Positions 4,201-9,664 of a stretch of DNA of 46,392 bases are shown one piece after another. The position numbers were made by a program, and so were the translations under genes. The stretch covers positions 1 through 46,392 of the forward strand of contig MSTD01000046.1 of NCBI GenBank assembly GCA_001942045.1, given 5' to 3'. The DNA is from Mycolicibacterium porcinum. Its GTDB lineage: Bacteria; Actinomycetota; Actinomycetes; Mycobacteriales; Mycobacteriaceae. Numbering within the stretch: the first letter of the stretch is position 1; each line of letters begins with the position of its first letter. Below the pieces are notes generated by a model, which was given only the letters and a program-made list of their open reading frames with translations, did no database searches and was not told where the DNA came from.

Positions 4201-4444
4201 ATCACCCAGCCTAGATAACCGGGGCTCCGATTCGCGGGCTCCGGTTGTCGAGGATCGCCGTCAAACAATTTCCCCCGCTACGGGGACAGCCGACGATCAG
4301 CACACGCCCGCCTCGGTGTAGAGCGGCACGCCTGCCCAATCTGTGGATCGTGCAAGGAAAGGATCGACTGACGGCCATCACCCTTGTTCGCACTGTGGCC
4401 TCCCTCACATCATGGTGCTCACCAGCGCCGGAAGGGGGCCCAGA

Positions 4445-4510
4445 ATGTCACAGCAGCAACGGGTTGCGACCCGGAACCGTTGCACAGGTGGACCGAGGCG
4501 GTGGTCATGA
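4445..4510 (+). CDS. candidate 21-residue leader ORF
   Basis: A 22-codon frame too short for ordinary gene calling. It has the best Shine-Dalgarno in this region: GGAAGGGGG at 4430-4438, six bases before ATG 4445. It encodes MSQQQRVATRNRC then TGGPRRWS: five arginines and one cysteine at codon 13. Its TGA (4508-4510) overlaps the ATG (4507) of the Cys/Gly-rich membrane peptide, so translation of the two would be coupled. The 244 bases between the TetR start (4200) and this frame show no other credible gene. A leader-peptide or attenuator role is inference; chance is possible for so short a frame. Confidence 0.4.
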   Translation: MSQQQRVATRNRCTGGPRRWS

Positions 4511-4731
4511 TGGGCCTCTCCCTCTCGATTTTTCTCACCTTCGTGGCGGTCGCCTGTCTGGCGGCATGGAGTAAGGCGCTTCGACGAGACGCCGTCTGGC
4601 AGGCCGGCGGAAGCGAGAACGGAGACAGCCGCGGAACCTGCAGTGCCGCAGGCGACGCTTCCGGCGGTTGCGGCGGCTGCGGCTCCGGCTGTGGTGGCGG
4701 CTGCGGTGGGTGTGGTGGTTGCGGTGGGTAA
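4507..4731 (+). CDS. small membrane peptide with Cys/Gly-rich tail
   Basis: 74 residues from ATG 4507 (a second ATG follows at 4510), with GAGG eight bases upstream. An N-terminal helix (LSLSIFLTFVAVACLAAW) should insert in the membrane. A basic/polar linker follows, then a 22-residue tail made only of Gly, Cys and one Ser (GGCGGCGSG...). The tail resembles the Cys/Gly repeats at the ends of bacterial proteins carrying the GRDP-like domain, and superficially the modified core of microcin B17. No cyclodehydratase or protease gene is adjacent, so a modified peptide is not supported. The stop overlaps the next gene, whose product is GRDP-like. This suggests that membrane anchor and Cys/Gly segment, normally part of one protein, are encoded separately here or joined by frameshifting. 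Confidence 0.6.
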   Translation: MMGLSLSIFLTFVAVACLAAWSKALRRDAVWQAGGSENGDSRGTCSAAGDASGGCGGCGSGCGGGCGGCGGCGG

Positions 4732-5242
4732 CGCAACAGCGCGTCGTTACCGGTTGAGTCATGTGTCGAGCGCGGTGGCCAATCTCGAGCTCCCGCCGGC
4801 CGTCTTCAAAACGTGCCCGTGGGAACCCCGGCCACTGATCGAGACCGGCCTGCGGCAATGGCTGCGGTTGTGCGCACCCGCATTGCGCGACAACAAGGCC
4901 ATCGGCATGCCGTCGCATGCGGTCGATGAAGCCTGGCACGGCCTGATCCTCTGCACCGCAAGGTATTCCGCGTTCTGCACGAAGGCCTATCGCACGTTTC
5001 TGCACCATCACCCGGTCGACGGTGCGCCCGCCGAGGTGGCGGCGCTCGCCGAGCCCATGCCCGAGCGGCTACGCCGGACGGTTATCGCGTGGTCACTCGT
5101 CGCCGAACCCGGTGAGGAGTGCGTGCTCTGGGATATCGACCAACGACTCGGGCTGGCAGATCCGTGGGGCTTACCAATGGAACGGATCGCTCAGATCCAG
5201 ACGTCGCTCGAGGGACTCCGATCGTCTCGGCTTTCGTCGTGA
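4724..5242 (+). CDS. GRDP-like (glycine-rich-domain-protein-like) conserved protein
   Basis: About 172 residues. The frame stays open back to 4643. GTG 4724 overlaps the previous stop by eight bases and is preferred; GTG 4763 is the other option. Landmarks are AIGMPSHAVDEAWHGLIL (around residues 64-81) followed by ARYSAFCTKAYRTFLHHHP. They match a widespread bacterial domain in which a MPS..VD.AWH segment precedes a histidine-rich FLHH motif. The function is unknown; the His and Cys residues could bind a metal, which is inference. The gene lies in the +1 frame relative to the Cys/Gly peptide. In proteins of this family that I recall, a transmembrane start, this domain and a Cys/Gly tail occur in a single chain. 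Confidence 0.65.
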   Translation: MGNATARRYRLSHVSSAVANLELPPAVFKTCPWEPRPLIETGLRQWLRLCAPALRDNKAIGMPSHAVDEAWHGLILCTARYSAFCTKAYRTFLHHHPVDGAPAEVAALAEPMPERLRRTVIAWSLVAEPGEECVLWDIDQRLGLADPWGLPMERIAQIQTSLEGLRSSRLSS

Positions 5243-5286: not shown

Positions 5287-6663
5287 ATGCAATTGACAGA
5301 GAACCAGGAACGATCGCCTCGGCCCCGGTCGGTGGCCGGCAACGTGATCCGCGGTTCCCTCGGGAACCTGATCGAGTGGTACGACTGGTACGCCTACGCC
5401 GCGTTCAGCATCTATTTCGCCGGCGTGTTCTTCCCGTCGGGAAATCAGACCGCCCAACTGCTGAACACCGCCGGCGTCTTCGCGGTGGGGTTCCTGGTCC
5501 GGCCCCTCGGCGGTTGGATGTTCGGCAGATACGCCGACCGCTTCGGACGCCGTGCGGCATTGACCCTGTCGGTGACGTTGATGGGTATCGGCTCCCTCGG
5601 CATCGCCATCCTGCCGGGCTATGGCCAGATCGGTTTGCTTGCGCCGATCCTGCTGGTGGCGCTGCGGCTACTCCAGGGATTGTCACTCGGCGGCGAATAT
5701 GGCACCTCGGCAACATATTTGAGCGAAGTCGCCACACCGCACCGGCGCGGCTTCTATTCCTCATTCCAGTATGTGACGCTGACCAGCGGTCAACTCCTGG
5801 CGCTCGGTGTGCAGATCGTGCTGCAACAGCTTCTGACGCCCGAACAGATGCACAGCTGGGGCTGGCGCATCGCCTTCCTGGTCGGGGCCGCCGCGGCAGT
5901 GACGGTGATGTGGCTCCGACGCACCATGGACGAGTCGGCCAACTATCAGCTCGCCGTCAGCGAGAGCACTGAGGATGCCGAGCGCGGCAGCCTGCGGGTG
6001 CTGCTGTCCTACCCGAAGGAATGCCTGACCGTCGTGGGCCTCACCCTCGGCGGCACCATCGCGTTCTACACGTTCACCACCTACATGCAGAAGTTCATGA
6101 TCAACACGACGGGACTGCCCAAAGAACAGGTGACGCTGATCAACTTCGTAGCGTTGGTCCTCTTCGTCGGCCTACAACCCGCGATGGGCGCGCTGTCGGA
6201 TCGGGTCGGCCGTCGCCCGCTGTTGATCGCCTTCGGCGTGGGCGCAACACTTTTCAGCGTCCCACTGTTGTTCGCGGTGTCTCGGGCCGGCTCGGCGCTC
6301 TCCGCGTTCGGCCTGATGATGCTGGGGCTGATCATCGTGTCCGGATACACGTCGATCAATGCGGTAGTGAAGGCGGAACTGTTCCCCGCCCGGATACGGG
6401 CGCTCGGTGTCGGACTGCCGTATGCGCTTACGGTTGCGATCTTCGGCGGTACCACCGAATACATCGCGCTGGGGCTGAAGAACATCGGCCACGAGCAATT
6501 GTTCTTCTTCTACGTCGCCGGCGCCGCCCTGATCTCCTTGTTGGTCTACGTGTTCATGGGTGAGTCCTCGAGTTCGTCGCACCTTGAGCGCGAGGCGGAG
6601 GAACTCCCCACCGTGGGCGCCGAGCTCGTCGATTCCGCGGCGTCCGCCGGGAAAGGTTCCTAG
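5287..6663 (+). CDS. MHS-family major facilitator permease (dicarboxylate/alpha-ketoglutarate type)
   Basis: 458 residues, twelve predicted membrane segments, proton-coupled uptake. The start RGSLGNLIEWYDWYAYAAF is the signature of the metabolite:H+ symporter group (KgtP, ProP, ShiA relatives). Motif A follows (FGRYADRFGRR), then LSLGGEYGTSATYLSEVA and, in the second half, ALSDRVGRRPLLI. Known substrates in the group include alpha-ketoglutarate, citrate, shikimate and betaine, so substrate choice cannot be fixed from sequence. GAAAGG sits about six bases before ATG 5287. A TctDE-like two-component pair begins only ten bases after its stop and a TAXI binding protein follows. Regulation by, or feedback to, that pair is likely, with a di- or tricarboxylate the best guess. 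Confidence 0.87.
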   Translation: MQLTENQERSPRPRSVAGNVIRGSLGNLIEWYDWYAYAAFSIYFAGVFFPSGNQTAQLLNTAGVFAVGFLVRPLGGWMFGRYADRFGRRAALTLSVTLMGIGSLGIAILPGYGQIGLLAPILLVALRLLQGLSLGGEYGTSATYLSEVATPHRRGFYSSFQYVTLTSGQLLALGVQIVLQQLLTPEQMHSWGWRIAFLVGAAAAVTVMWLRRTMDESANYQLAVSESTEDAERGSLRVLLSYPKECLTVVGLTLGGTIAFYTFTTYMQKFMINTTGLPKEQVTLINFVALVLFVGLQPAMGALSDRVGRRPLLIAFGVGATLFSVPLLFAVSRAGSALSAFGLMMLGLIIVSGYTSINAVVKAELFPARIRALGVGLPYALTVAIFGGTTEYIALGLKNIGHEQLFFFYVAGAALISLLVYVFMGESSSSSHLEREAEELPTVGAELVDSAASAGKGS

Positions 6664-6673
6664 CATCAGCGCC

Positions 6674-7339
6674 ATGCAGGTGCTGCTCGTCGAAGACGAC
6701 GACGGAGTGGCGTCGGCGCTGGTCGATCTTCTCGGCCAGACCGGCGCCTCCGTTGTGCGCGTATCTCACGGCACCGATGCACTGCACCGGGTCAAAGGCG
6801 CCGATCTCGTGTTGCTGGACCTCGGGCTTCCCGACATGGACGGCCTGGATGTGCTACGCACCCTGCGGCGCGCATCGTCGGTACCGGTGATCATCATGAC
6901 TGCCCGCGACAGCGACGGCTCAGTGGTCCTGGGGCTGCGCGCAGGCGCTGACGACTATCTCGTGAAGCCCGTGCGGAAAGCCGTGCTGTTGGCCCGAATT
7001 GACGCGGTGATGCGCCGCCTACGTCGCGCCACCGGCGAAGCCGCTGCCCCGTCAGCCCCGGTCGTCGCCGGGCCGGTCACCATCGACCGGGAACGCCGGG
7101 AAGTAACCCTGGCGGGCGCCGCACAAACCCTGACTCGAACCGAATTCCAGATCCTCTCGACGCTGGCAGCCCGGCAGGGTGAGGCCGTCAGCCGCGAGGA
7201 ATTGATGTTGCAGGTGTGGGGCACGGCGGTCGTCGGCCGGTCCAGATCTTTGGACTTCTTCATCGGTCAGATCAGGGCCAAGCTCGCCGGGCTGCCGCTG
7301 CAGACGGTGCGCGGCTTCGGTTTTCGGCTGGACAGCTGA
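6674..7339 (+). CDS. OmpR/TctD-like response regulator
   Basis: 221 residues. The receiver domain (1-115) shows the acidic pair EDD at 7-9, the phosphoacceptor Asp49 in LVLLDLGLPDMDG, Thr in IIMTARDSD and the lysine of YLVKPV. The C-terminal winged helix (about 130-221) contains LTRTEFQILSTLAA, SREELMLQVWG and the wing end VRGFGFRL. It should bind DNA as a phosphorylated dimer. The frame extends upstream into the permease gene, but ATG 6674 lies after the permease stop and starts directly with the receiver strand MQVLLVE. It is separated by one base from its kinase. Similarity is closest to TctD/QseB-type regulators of carboxylate uptake. Confidence 0.93.
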   Translation: MQVLLVEDDDGVASALVDLLGQTGASVVRVSHGTDALHRVKGADLVLLDLGLPDMDGLDVLRTLRRASSVPVIIMTARDSDGSVVLGLRAGADDYLVKPVRKAVLLARIDAVMRRLRRATGEAAAPSAPVVAGPVTIDRERREVTLAGAAQTLTRTEFQILSTLAARQGEAVSREELMLQVWGTAVVGRSRSLDFFIGQIRAKLAGLPLQTVRGFGFRLDS

Positions 7340-7340
7340 C

Positions 7341-8723
7341 ATGGGTCTGCGAGTCCGCATCGTTATGGTCATCCTGCTTCTGCTCGCGGTCATGGCGCTG
7401 GCGGTGCCCTTGGCGCTCAGCTTGTCCGATCGGCGCACCGCAGCATTGGCCGCCGAACGGGACCGGCACCTCGCCGCGCTCACGGATGCCGCTGCCATGC
7501 CCGGTATCCCTCTGCAGCCCCTTGTCGACCGGTACTACGACGTTTACTCGGAAGGCCTGCTCATCGCCGATGCCGATGGCCGCACCCTGGCCTCCCGCGG
7601 ACTCGACCTTTCGGCGCCCGGGGCGCAGACAGCCCTGTACCACGCCCTAGTCGCCGCACCTGTCTCGCCGTGGAGCCGGATCCTGCCGTGGGACGGCCAT
7701 CGGCCGCTCGCCACCTCCGCGATCCGACGCGACGGTGAACTGATAGGCGCGGCGGTACTGGCGGTCGACACTGGCACGGCCGCAAGAGATGTCGCGAGGG
7801 GCTGGTTGTGGATAGGCGCCGGGTGTCTGGCCTTCCTACTGTTGGCGGCGGTGGTTGCTCGCGCGTTGACGCGGTGGGTGCTGCGGCCGCTCGACGGGCT
7901 GGAGCGCGCCGTCGCCGAGATGACCGAGGGCGTGGCCGGGCCACCCGCCGATGTGGCCGGGCCACCGGAACTGCGTCACTTCACCTCCGCCTTCAACACC
8001 ATGGCCCAGGTGGTGCGTGCGTCGCTGGACCGTCAGCGTCGACTGGTGGCCGACGCGTCGCATCAGATGCGCAATCCGCTTGCCGCAGTTCGTCTTCGGG
8101 CCGACAGTCTGGAGAGCTATGTCGTGCCGGAGGGACGACCGGCCTACGACTCGATGACTTCCGAGCTCGATCGTTTCGAGAACCTCCTGCAACAACTGCT
8201 CCGTCTGGCTCGCGCCGAGCAGGTCAGCGGCAGCCGAAAGGTGGGGTTGTCCAACGGCGCTGCCGAGAACACCGACCTCGGCGACGTCGTCGCCGAGCGA
8301 CTGACGTTCTGGGAAACACTCGCCGCCAGGAATGAGCAGCAGCTGTGCAACAGAGCAGCCCGCATCGGCCCGCCCGTACAGGTCCCCCGTCATGAGGTGG
8401 AGCAACTACTCGATGTGGCGTTGGATAACGCGGTCCGCTACGCCGGGCCGGACGCGACCATCACCGTGTCGGCGACCCGCGCCGACGATACGTGCGTTGA
8501 GCTGGTGATCAGCGACAGTGGCACCGGTCTACCCGAGGAGGATCTCTCGCAGGCGGCGTCACGTTTCTGGCGCGGATGCGACGACGGCAGCGGCACCGGC
8601 CTCGGTCTGGCGATCGCCGCCGAGATCGTCCAAGGACACGGCGGAGCAATCGAGGTGCACCGAGCCCCTGAAGGCGGCCTCTTGATCCGCTACCGGTTGC
8701 CGGCAACGGATGCGTCGGCCTGA
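7341..8723 (+). CDS. TctE-like sensor histidine kinase
   Basis: 460 residues, membrane-bound. TM1 is at about 7-28. The extracytoplasmic sensor of about 125 residues runs from 29 to 153, with DRYYDVYSEGLLIADADG as in TctE/QseC-like sensors. TM2 is at about 154-176, then a HAMP linker. The phosphoacceptor is His241 in DASHQMRNPLAAVRL. The ATPase domain has the N box (DNAVRYAG), the G1 box (DSGTGLPEED) and the G2 box (GTGLGLAIAAEI). The His/Gln/Met after the H (HQMRNP) is the variant common in actinobacteria. It starts one base after the regulator's stop and overlaps the TAXI protein gene by one base (TGATG), so the three are translated together. The TAXI lipoprotein may present a ligand to its sensor domain; this is inference. 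Confidence 0.93.
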   Translation: MGLRVRIVMVILLLLAVMALAVPLALSLSDRRTAALAAERDRHLAALTDAAAMPGIPLQPLVDRYYDVYSEGLLIADADGRTLASRGLDLSAPGAQTALYHALVAAPVSPWSRILPWDGHRPLATSAIRRDGELIGAAVLAVDTGTAARDVARGWLWIGAGCLAFLLLAAVVARALTRWVLRPLDGLERAVAEMTEGVAGPPADVAGPPELRHFTSAFNTMAQVVRASLDRQRRLVADASHQMRNPLAAVRLRADSLESYVVPEGRPAYDSMTSELDRFENLLQQLLRLARAEQVSGSRKVGLSNGAAENTDLGDVVAERLTFWETLAARNEQQLCNRAARIGPPVQVPRHEVEQLLDVALDNAVRYAGPDATITVSATRADDTCVELVISDSGTGLPEEDLSQAASRFWRGCDDGSGTGLGLAIAAEIVQGHGGAIEVHRAPEGGLLIRYRLPATDASA

Positions 8724-9664
8724 TGAACGTCTGGTCTGTGCAGTTGAATCGCCGCACATTCGTCGCCGTAACAGCGCTGCTGGCCGCCGGGTGCGTCCGC
8801 AGCTCACCGTCCGGACGGCTGAGACTGGCCGCCGGAGATCCCGGCGGGCTGTATCTGGCCTTCGCGCAAATTCTTGCCGAGCGGGTCCAGGCCCGCTGCC
8901 CGAACCTCGTCGTCGATGTCGTTTCGACAGAGGGCAGTGTGCAGAACCTCGCCAAGCTCCGGGCTGGCGAGGTCGATATGGGCCTGACCCTGGCCGATGT
9001 TGCCGAACGCGACCGGGCTACCGGTCCAACCGCCACCGCGCCACAGGCCGTGGCGCGAGTGTACGAGAACTACCTTCAGGTGCTCGTCCGCAAATCGGCA
9101 CTCGCCCAGACTGTTTCAGATCTTGCCGGCAAGCGCGTCTCGATCGGACCCACCGGCTCGGGAGCGGCGGCGACCGGCACCGTGCTGTTCGACGCGGCAG
9201 GGCTACACGGCCGGGTAGCGATGGAGAACTACCGTCTGCGGGACGGACTGGCCCATCTTGCCGACGGTCGTGTGGAGGCGATGGTGTGGTCAGGCGGGGT
9301 CCCGACGCCGGCGATCGCCGACCTGCACAACCAGGTGCCGATGCGCATGCTCGACATCGGCGCGCTGGCGGCGCCGATGAGTGAGCTTGCCGGATACCCG
9401 TACACCGTCCGCTTCGCACCGTCCGGCGGATACGTACCCCCGGGGACCCGCACCATCGGGGTCCCCGACCTGCTCCTGTGTCGCAACGACATCGGCTCCG
9501 AGTTGGTCGCGGCGGTTGTCGACGTCCTGGCCACCGACGCGCCCCAACTGATCCCTCCCGGCGTCCGAGGACTGCAGTACCTCGATGCCCCGTCGATGAT
9601 CCAGACAGGTGCCATCCCTCTGCATACCGGCGCCATCGGGGCCTACCGCACGCTGCACGGCTGA
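8723..9664 (+). CDS. TAXI-family solute-binding lipoprotein
   Basis: 313 residues. The N terminus has twin arginines (NRR, 9-11), a hydrophobic run and the lipobox LAAGC with Cys24, so export (possibly by Tat) and lipidation at the outer membrane face are predicted. The mature part has the TAXI-TRAP binding-protein pattern: LAAGDPGGLYLAFAQILAE, VSTEGSVQNLAKL, VDMGLTLADVA, KRVSIGPTGSGAAATG and GYVPPGTRTIGVP. TAXI proteins normally feed a TRAP DctQM permease, but none is present here. The neighbours are a sensor kinase and an MHS permease. The likely role is therefore ligand capture for sensing. It overlaps the kinase stop by one base. Confidence 0.88.
   Translation: MNVWSVQLNRRTFVAVTALLAAGCVRSSPSGRLRLAAGDPGGLYLAFAQILAERVQARCPNLVVDVVSTEGSVQNLAKLRAGEVDMGLTLADVAERDRATGPTATAPQAVARVYENYLQVLVRKSALAQTVSDLAGKRVSIGPTGSGAAATGTVLFDAAGLHGRVAMENYRLRDGLAHLADGRVEAMVWSGGVPTPAIADLHNQVPMRMLDIGALAAPMSELAGYPYTVRFAPSGGYVPPGTRTIGVPDLLLCRNDIGSELVAAVVDVLATDAPQLIPPGVRGLQYLDAPSMIQTGAIPLHTGAIGAYRTLHG

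Follow-up and report, generated by a model that had tools for sequence, protein, structure and literature searches.

Organization of the Locus

The window, by which we mean the whole stretch of 46,392 nucleotides of the Mycolicibacterium porcinum genome that was analyzed, carries three short overlapping frames on its forward strand, followed by genes for a transporter, a two-component system and a solute-binding protein (Table 1). An earlier, sequence-only reading had reported three overlapping frames, a leader of 21 codons, a frame for a peptide of 74 residues and a GRDP-like gene, with an overlap of eight bases between the second and the third, and the analysis upheld these coordinates throughout: the leader ORF opens with the ATG at 4445 and closes with a TGA (4508–4510) inside the start region of the second frame, where one ATG (4507–4509) is followed directly by another (4510–4512), and the TAA of the second frame (4729–4731) lies within the third, which is read from a GTG at 4724 in +1 relative to the second frame and overlaps it by eight bases. 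The third frame is already open from 4511, upstream of this assumed start.

Table 1. Features of the locus, with positions in the window.
Feature	Position	Strand	Remarks
23-bp regulon element, AATCTGTGGATCGTGCAAGGAAA	4338..4360	+	only copy in the window at ≤3 mismatches; 0 in 100 shuffles
TGTGR-N6-TCACA palindrome, Crp-like	4394..4409		56 bp after element start
Putative -10 box, CATCAT	4408..4413	+	CATCATG in 13/28 and CANNATG in 21/28 element copies
Shine-Dalgarno sequence of the leader, GGAAGGGGG	4430..4438	+	duplex energy with the 16S 3' end -14.4 kcal/mol
Leader ORF, 21 codons, MSQQQRVATRNRCTGGPRRWS	4445..4510	+	ATG at +107 from element start
Single-TM protein, 74 aa, W-x-A-G motif and Cys/Gly tail	4507..4731	+	predicted N-out/C-in
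Soluble all-helical GRDP-like protein, 172 aa	4724..5242	+	homologues carry the label PF27765; start at GTG assumed
MFS transporter, MHS metabolite:H+ symporter type, KgtP-like	5287..6663	+	PF00083, 3.7e-37
OmpR-family response regulator	6674..7339	+	start chosen inside ORF 6560-7339
Sensor histidine kinase	7341..8723	+	profile searches
TAXI-family solute-binding protein	8723..9664	+	TIGR02122, 155.6 bits, above cut-off

The transporter scored 498 bits with PRK10406 and 412 bits with TIGR00883, in each case below the cut-off. With an MFS/Sugar_tr transporter, an OmpR-type regulator, a kinase and a TAXI protein in a row the region resembles MHS-family transporter operons, from which it differs by the tail/GRDP pair at its front and by the 23-bp element. 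From the leader through the TAXI gene it looks like one operon, whose genes would share a transcript. The closest relatives found for the third gene are 91% (G329) and 82% (Mycobacterium sp. URHD0025) identical, and in the former (L188) the gene order around the pair is the same as in the window.

The GRDP-like Partner Protein

The third gene product did not match any of the Pfam profiles searched, and comparison with solved structures yielded no convincing match. Its predicted structure is all-helical (pLDDT 82.7, with only one of five models confident), and the 120 listed of its 1317 homologues carry the precomputed Pfam label PF27765, a profile that gave no hit in the Pfam search itself. 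The sequence-only reading had called the protein GRDP-like, a label that profile searches do not confirm: none of 51 members (the window protein, 42 of the 120 listed homologues and 8 of 20 fetched paralogue loci) matched PF07173 (DUF1399) at E ≤ 1. A search of 149 genomes of the phylum with the same profile gave no hit, but neither did the 14 controls, so that this search carries no weight. Fourteen positions, including M62, S64, V67, D68, W71, H72, Y81, H95 and P97, are invariant in the 51 aligned members, eight of which are distant paralogues. The partner has a D-x-x-WH ... H motif that resembles DUF1399, and a relationship between the two domains may be regarded as a lead. A longer paralogous family of mycobacteria (L155-L174), with a core of about 220–260 aa, contains the motifs M-x-S-x-x-V-D-x-A/V-W-H and H-x-P and shows no Cys/Gly tail in the frames shown.

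The Tail Gene and Its Partner Form a Recurrent Pair

The 154 fetched loci that contain the third gene correspond to 130 distinct loci (131 with the window), 80 of which stem from Mycobacterium, Mycolicibacterium, Nocardia and one Nonomuraea, and 50 from other genomes. A tail ORF, taken as one with at least 4 Cys and at least 13 Gly in its last 45 residues and CGG near its end, adjoins the third gene in 81 of the 130 loci. Within −1500 to +2000 of the start of the GRDP-like gene 87 such ORFs were found, whereas the more distant flank of these loci, 513 kb in total, contained none; 49 of the 130 loci lack a tail ORF under this filter, L090 being a miss of the filter itself.

When the window is included, 62 of the 88 tail ORFs lie on the strand opposite to the partner (45 divergent upstream, 10 with an open frame running into the gene and 7 convergent downstream) and the other 26 share the strand of the partner (23 upstream, two of which encode GPP34-domain proteins (L047, L154), and 3 downstream). 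Relative to the partner's aligned first residue, co-directional upstream tail genes end anywhere from about 39 bases before it to 19 bases after it, in varying frames: L005, L014 and L019 have another frame relation than the window, and L088 and L089 have no overlap. The sequence-only reading had proposed to look for the same three frames in related mycobacteria, and the exact relation, with the overlap of eight bases, recurs in L001 and L087 but in no other co-directional locus.

According to the same reading, anchor, tail and GRDP-like domain belong to one chain that is split here. That the split genes belong together is borne out by their adjacency in 81 of 130 loci, whereas a one-chain form in bacteria is not: in none of the 131 loci did the open frame of the partner contain a Cys/Gly stretch, and no Cys/Gly C-terminus was seen among the 120 listed homologues (the search being limited to lengths of about 95–301 aa). 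One continuous frame in homologous loci had been named as the sign of a sequence error, and it is the split that recurs. Plant GRDP2 does combine DUF1399 and a C-terminal [CG]GGGCGG[GC] region on one chain (PMC4299439; also PMC8585784), which makes a functional link of domain and tail attractive. Plant GRDP1/2 thus share with the bacterial pair a similar Cys/Gly tail (PMC4299439), but have it on one chain together with a putative RNA-binding motif, while the bacterial genes are separate.

The one-chain form of the plant proteins also speaks for the suggestion that anchor, tail and GRDP-like domain are joined by ribosomes shifting into +1 within the GGT/TGC tract, as does the partner's frame, which runs open through the tract in the window and in L001. 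Tracts of the type (GGN TGY)n tend to read open in +1, however, and such openness tends to follow from composition. With most tail ORFs on the opposite strand, no fused frame, and strand, frame and overlap varying as described, a +1 frameshift product is not conserved, and we regard such a fusion as very improbable. The tail protein and its partner look like separate proteins encoded by ordinary overlapping genes, rather than like a recoding or cysteine-sensing device.

Cys/Gly Tails and Their Possible Modification

A hydrophobic stretch is present in 87 of the 88 tail ORFs, and in 70 of the 88 the motif W-x(1,2)-[AGTS]-G occurs within the last 110 residues. The C-terminal flank of the TM segment is the more positive one in 74 of the 87 proteins and the N-terminal flank in 5 (8 ties), which predicts a cytosolic location for most tails. 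In L047 (4277-4984) and L154 (780-1490) the proteins encoded directly upstream of the GRDP-like gene are GPP34 (GOLPH3-domain) proteins with a CGGCGG-type tail, and a small tail/TM gene is additionally found downstream.

Among described proteins, those of the TIGR04222 (near_uncomplex) family are among the closest: according to PMC12452194 they are membrane proteins with a Gly/Cys low-complexity tail, found mostly in Actinomycetota, and their tails are periplasmic and proposed to be substrates of MNIO enzymes. They share with the window peptide a Gly/Cys tail on a membrane protein and an adjoining partner gene. The window peptide has one TM segment and a tail predicted to be cytosolic, its partner is GRDP-like instead of an MNIO enzyme, and neither peptide nor partner matched the TIGR04222 profile at E ≤ 1. 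The main text of PMC12452194 contains no occurrence of GRDP, DUF1399 or PF07173, and none of the matches listed in our literature search, which covered few subscription papers, described the tail/GRDP pair.

The sequence-only reading had also suggested looking for modification enzymes linked to similar tails, and these exist in part: the TIGR04222 proteins of three genomes (G001, G329, G003) have a similar Cys/Gly tail and an MNIO gene directly behind them, the arrangement known for this family from PMC12452194. In G001 a second tail/GRDP pair (L186, G001:C13:170231-175092) is separated by about 3 kb from a TIGR04222 gene and the MNIO (PF05114) gene that follows it. This neighborhood could be taken to mean that the tail studied here is likewise a RiPP-type substrate of an MNIO enzyme. 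But PF05114 had no match in 7 of the 13 tested genomes with a GRDP-like gene, nor among the eight window proteins scanned, and the tails of the pair are predicted to lie on the other side of the membrane, which renders modification by MNIO quite unlikely.

A 23-bp Element Marks a Small Regulon

The alignment of the window with L001 revealed a conserved upstream block that contains the 23-bp element. In slightly degenerate form the element precedes the partner gene in 10 of the 130 loci plus the window, compared to none in 790 kb of farther flank, and most pairs are thus not under its control. These ten loci are those with co-directional CGGCGG-type small TM genes; upstream of the two GPP34 loci with CGGCGG-type tails (L047, L154) the element is absent. 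Allowing up to 3 mismatches, ten genomes contain 27 copies (1–8 per genome), with none for the reversed control pattern, and 26 of 386 genomes of the same genus carry the element (control 0). Eight copies occur in G292 and five in G276, several of them grouped on the contig that also carries the kinase gene.

Behind 28 copies, that of the window included, we found 9 MFS genes (identified by a common N-terminus), 11 tail/GRDP units (3 with the leader) and 3 genes for hotdog thioesterases, in addition to a DUF732-like small protein below the cut-off (L207), an SBP/VWA protein (L200) and unclassified genes (L210, L217); L218 has no clear gene. The thioesterase genes (4HBT) are those of L201, L214 and L215, and at L005/L201 two elements point apart, one for the thioesterase and one for the tail/GRDP pair. 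The start codon of the first gene (an ORF of at least 60 aa or an ATG followed by at least 20 codons) lies 103–113 bases after the start of the element in 24 of the 28 copies, once as GTG; in L212 the tail gene at 103 was chosen over a longer ORF at 117. The four other copies are those of L198 and L199, where the tail gene starts at 141 without the shared leader, of L200 (125) and of L218.

Between element and leader lies a palindrome which, in the window (TGTGG-CCTCCC-TCACA), is one half-site base off the Crp consensus TGTGA-N6-TCACA given in PMC4218801; L001 and L019 have TGTGA. It occurs near the gene in 7 of the 130 loci plus the window and nowhere in 790 kb of farther flank, and in full form in 12 of the 28 element copies, always at position 55 or 56, while the 6 matches with one mismatch within the window are not above chance (3.9 expected). 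Its place just ahead of the putative -10 box would suit a repressor.

An orthologue of the operon's histidine kinase (67–93% identical) was found in 10 of 10 element genomes, with a same-strand element 2.1–3.0 kb upstream. Scored over 386 genomes (E ≤ 1e-100, four candidates per genome), the kinase is present in 21 of 26 element genomes vs 3 of 360 others (Fisher 5e-27, uncorrected for shared ancestry), with five element genomes lacking the kinase and three kinase genomes lacking the element. In 11 of 12 further tabulated genomes 0.7–2.1 kb separate an element, on either strand, from the kinase gene, and in G150 the two are on different contigs. In view of its linkage and co-occurrence with the kinase, the element is most likely a binding site, and the foremost candidate to bind it is the response regulator of the operon itself. 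Neither the element nor PF27765 was mentioned in the literature searched, which again covered few subscription papers, and this small regulon, which we consider the main new result, is apparently undescribed.

The Leader ORF as a Probable Ribosome Entry Site

The Shine-Dalgarno sequence of the leader had been described as near-ideal, and rightly so: its duplex energy compares with −9.6 kcal/mol for the best 1% and −7.1 kcal/mol for the best 5% of 3000 random 17-mers of the window, and with −8.7 and −6.1 kcal/mol for the starts of the peptide and of the GTG-initiated gene. The leader ATG lies 107 bases from the element start in L087, as in the window, and 105 in L001, that is, within the usual range of first-gene starts in element-bearing units, and it is best read as probably the true ribosome entry site of the operon.

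Loss of the leader start and Shine-Dalgarno sequence among close relatives had been named by the sequence-only reading as grounds for refutation, and the outcome is mixed. Start, Shine-Dalgarno sequence and length of 21 codons are indeed kept in L087 and L001, the two closest relatives and the only fetched ones with a leader, and length and junction (TCATGATG) are identical in all three carriers; the leader DNA is, however, present in just 2 of 386 genomes of the genus and in 2 of 130 fetched loci. The leader is a feature of a narrow lineage. Its three pairwise pS/pN values (0.18/0.15, 0.12/0.24 and 0.17/0.15), compared to 0.30/0.03 for the GRDP core in the one pair resolved (window vs L087), reveal no selection on the leader residues, although with three sequences this is a weak test. 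Nucleotide differences number 1–2 in the first 30 bases and 9–11 in the last 33, which indicates constraint at the start region. The leader peptide has no conserved sequence and is probably without a function of its own. A hairpin (CGGGT-TGCG-ACCCG, 4460-4474) lies within leader codons 6-10, and in L087 and L001 an A to G exchange keeps a U-G pair.

A cysteine codon in a leader directly ahead of a Cys-rich gene could suggest a cysteine-responsive attenuator, and leaderless polycysteine attenuators are reportedly found in mycobacteria, to go by the title of an article by Canestrari from 2020. These have in common with the window a short ORF ahead of an operon, but are leaderless and polycysteine, while the window leader has a strong Shine-Dalgarno sequence and a single Cys codon (TGC, codon 13), a poor sensor. 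This codon exists neither in L087 nor in L001, even though start, Shine-Dalgarno sequence and length are kept there, and the folding of the RNA of 4330-4520 is ordinary (z −0.95). We thus see hardly any chance that the leader senses cysteine.

Alternatively, the leader might be a relic, either of the 5' end of an MFS gene of the regulon or of a frameshifted former tail-gene start, left in front of an inserted tail/GRDP cassette and tolerated rather than selected. Its ATG lies near the position at which the MFS genes behind nine other element copies start (109–113), its residues appear unselected, and it shows local similarity to some MFS starts (the scores of window/L194 and of L087/L197 are each reached by 2 of 500 shuffles, that of window/L206 by 7 of 500). 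The majority of the 27 leader/MFS comparisons is ordinary, however, and the constant length and junction in the three carriers argue against mere tolerance, so that we consider such an origin less likely than not. As it concerns where the leader comes from, it can be true together with its use as a ribosome entry site.

A Model for the Operon and Its Implications

The reading that we favor, and consider rather probable, is that of a transporter operon controlled by a two-component system, with a bipartite tail/GRDP-like module that would be read by coupled termination and reinitiation. The three frames would form the promoter-proximal part of a unit in which leader, tail protein and GRDP-like protein are followed by the MHS transporter, the response regulator, the histidine kinase and the TAXI protein, and the response regulator, to judge from linkage and co-occurrence, would bind the 23-bp element. 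Ribosomes would enter at the leader ATG, at the usual first-gene position of element-bearing units, stop at the TGA and reinitiate at the ATG that overlaps it, producing the 74-residue protein, and a further restart on the GTG would yield the GRDP-like protein. The two products would be separate members of a recurrent two-gene module. In its predicted topology the single-TM protein keeps the Cys/Gly tail in the cytosol, where it could bind the soluble, all-helical partner, and the pair would then probably represent a membrane-tethered scaffold handling thiols or, perhaps, metals beside the transporter.

More tentatively still, and with the chances rather against it, we speculate that in mycobacteria and nocardiae Cys/Gly-tailed single-TM proteins and GRDP-like proteins make up a system of two parts that has not been described before. 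The partner would bind or mature the cytosolic tail independently of MNIO, and plant GRDPs would have in this system a bacterial counterpart in split form, tied in this organism to a dedicated two-component regulon that includes a metabolite transporter.

The recurrent pair of tail and partner genes may explain the role of Cys/Gly tails in the absence of MNIO enzymes. The regulon itself is compact, in that promoters, first start codons and the likely regulator can be predicted from a single 23-bp element, and the short leader ORF, located at the regulon's usual translation start, may set off the coupled translation of a series of overlapping genes.
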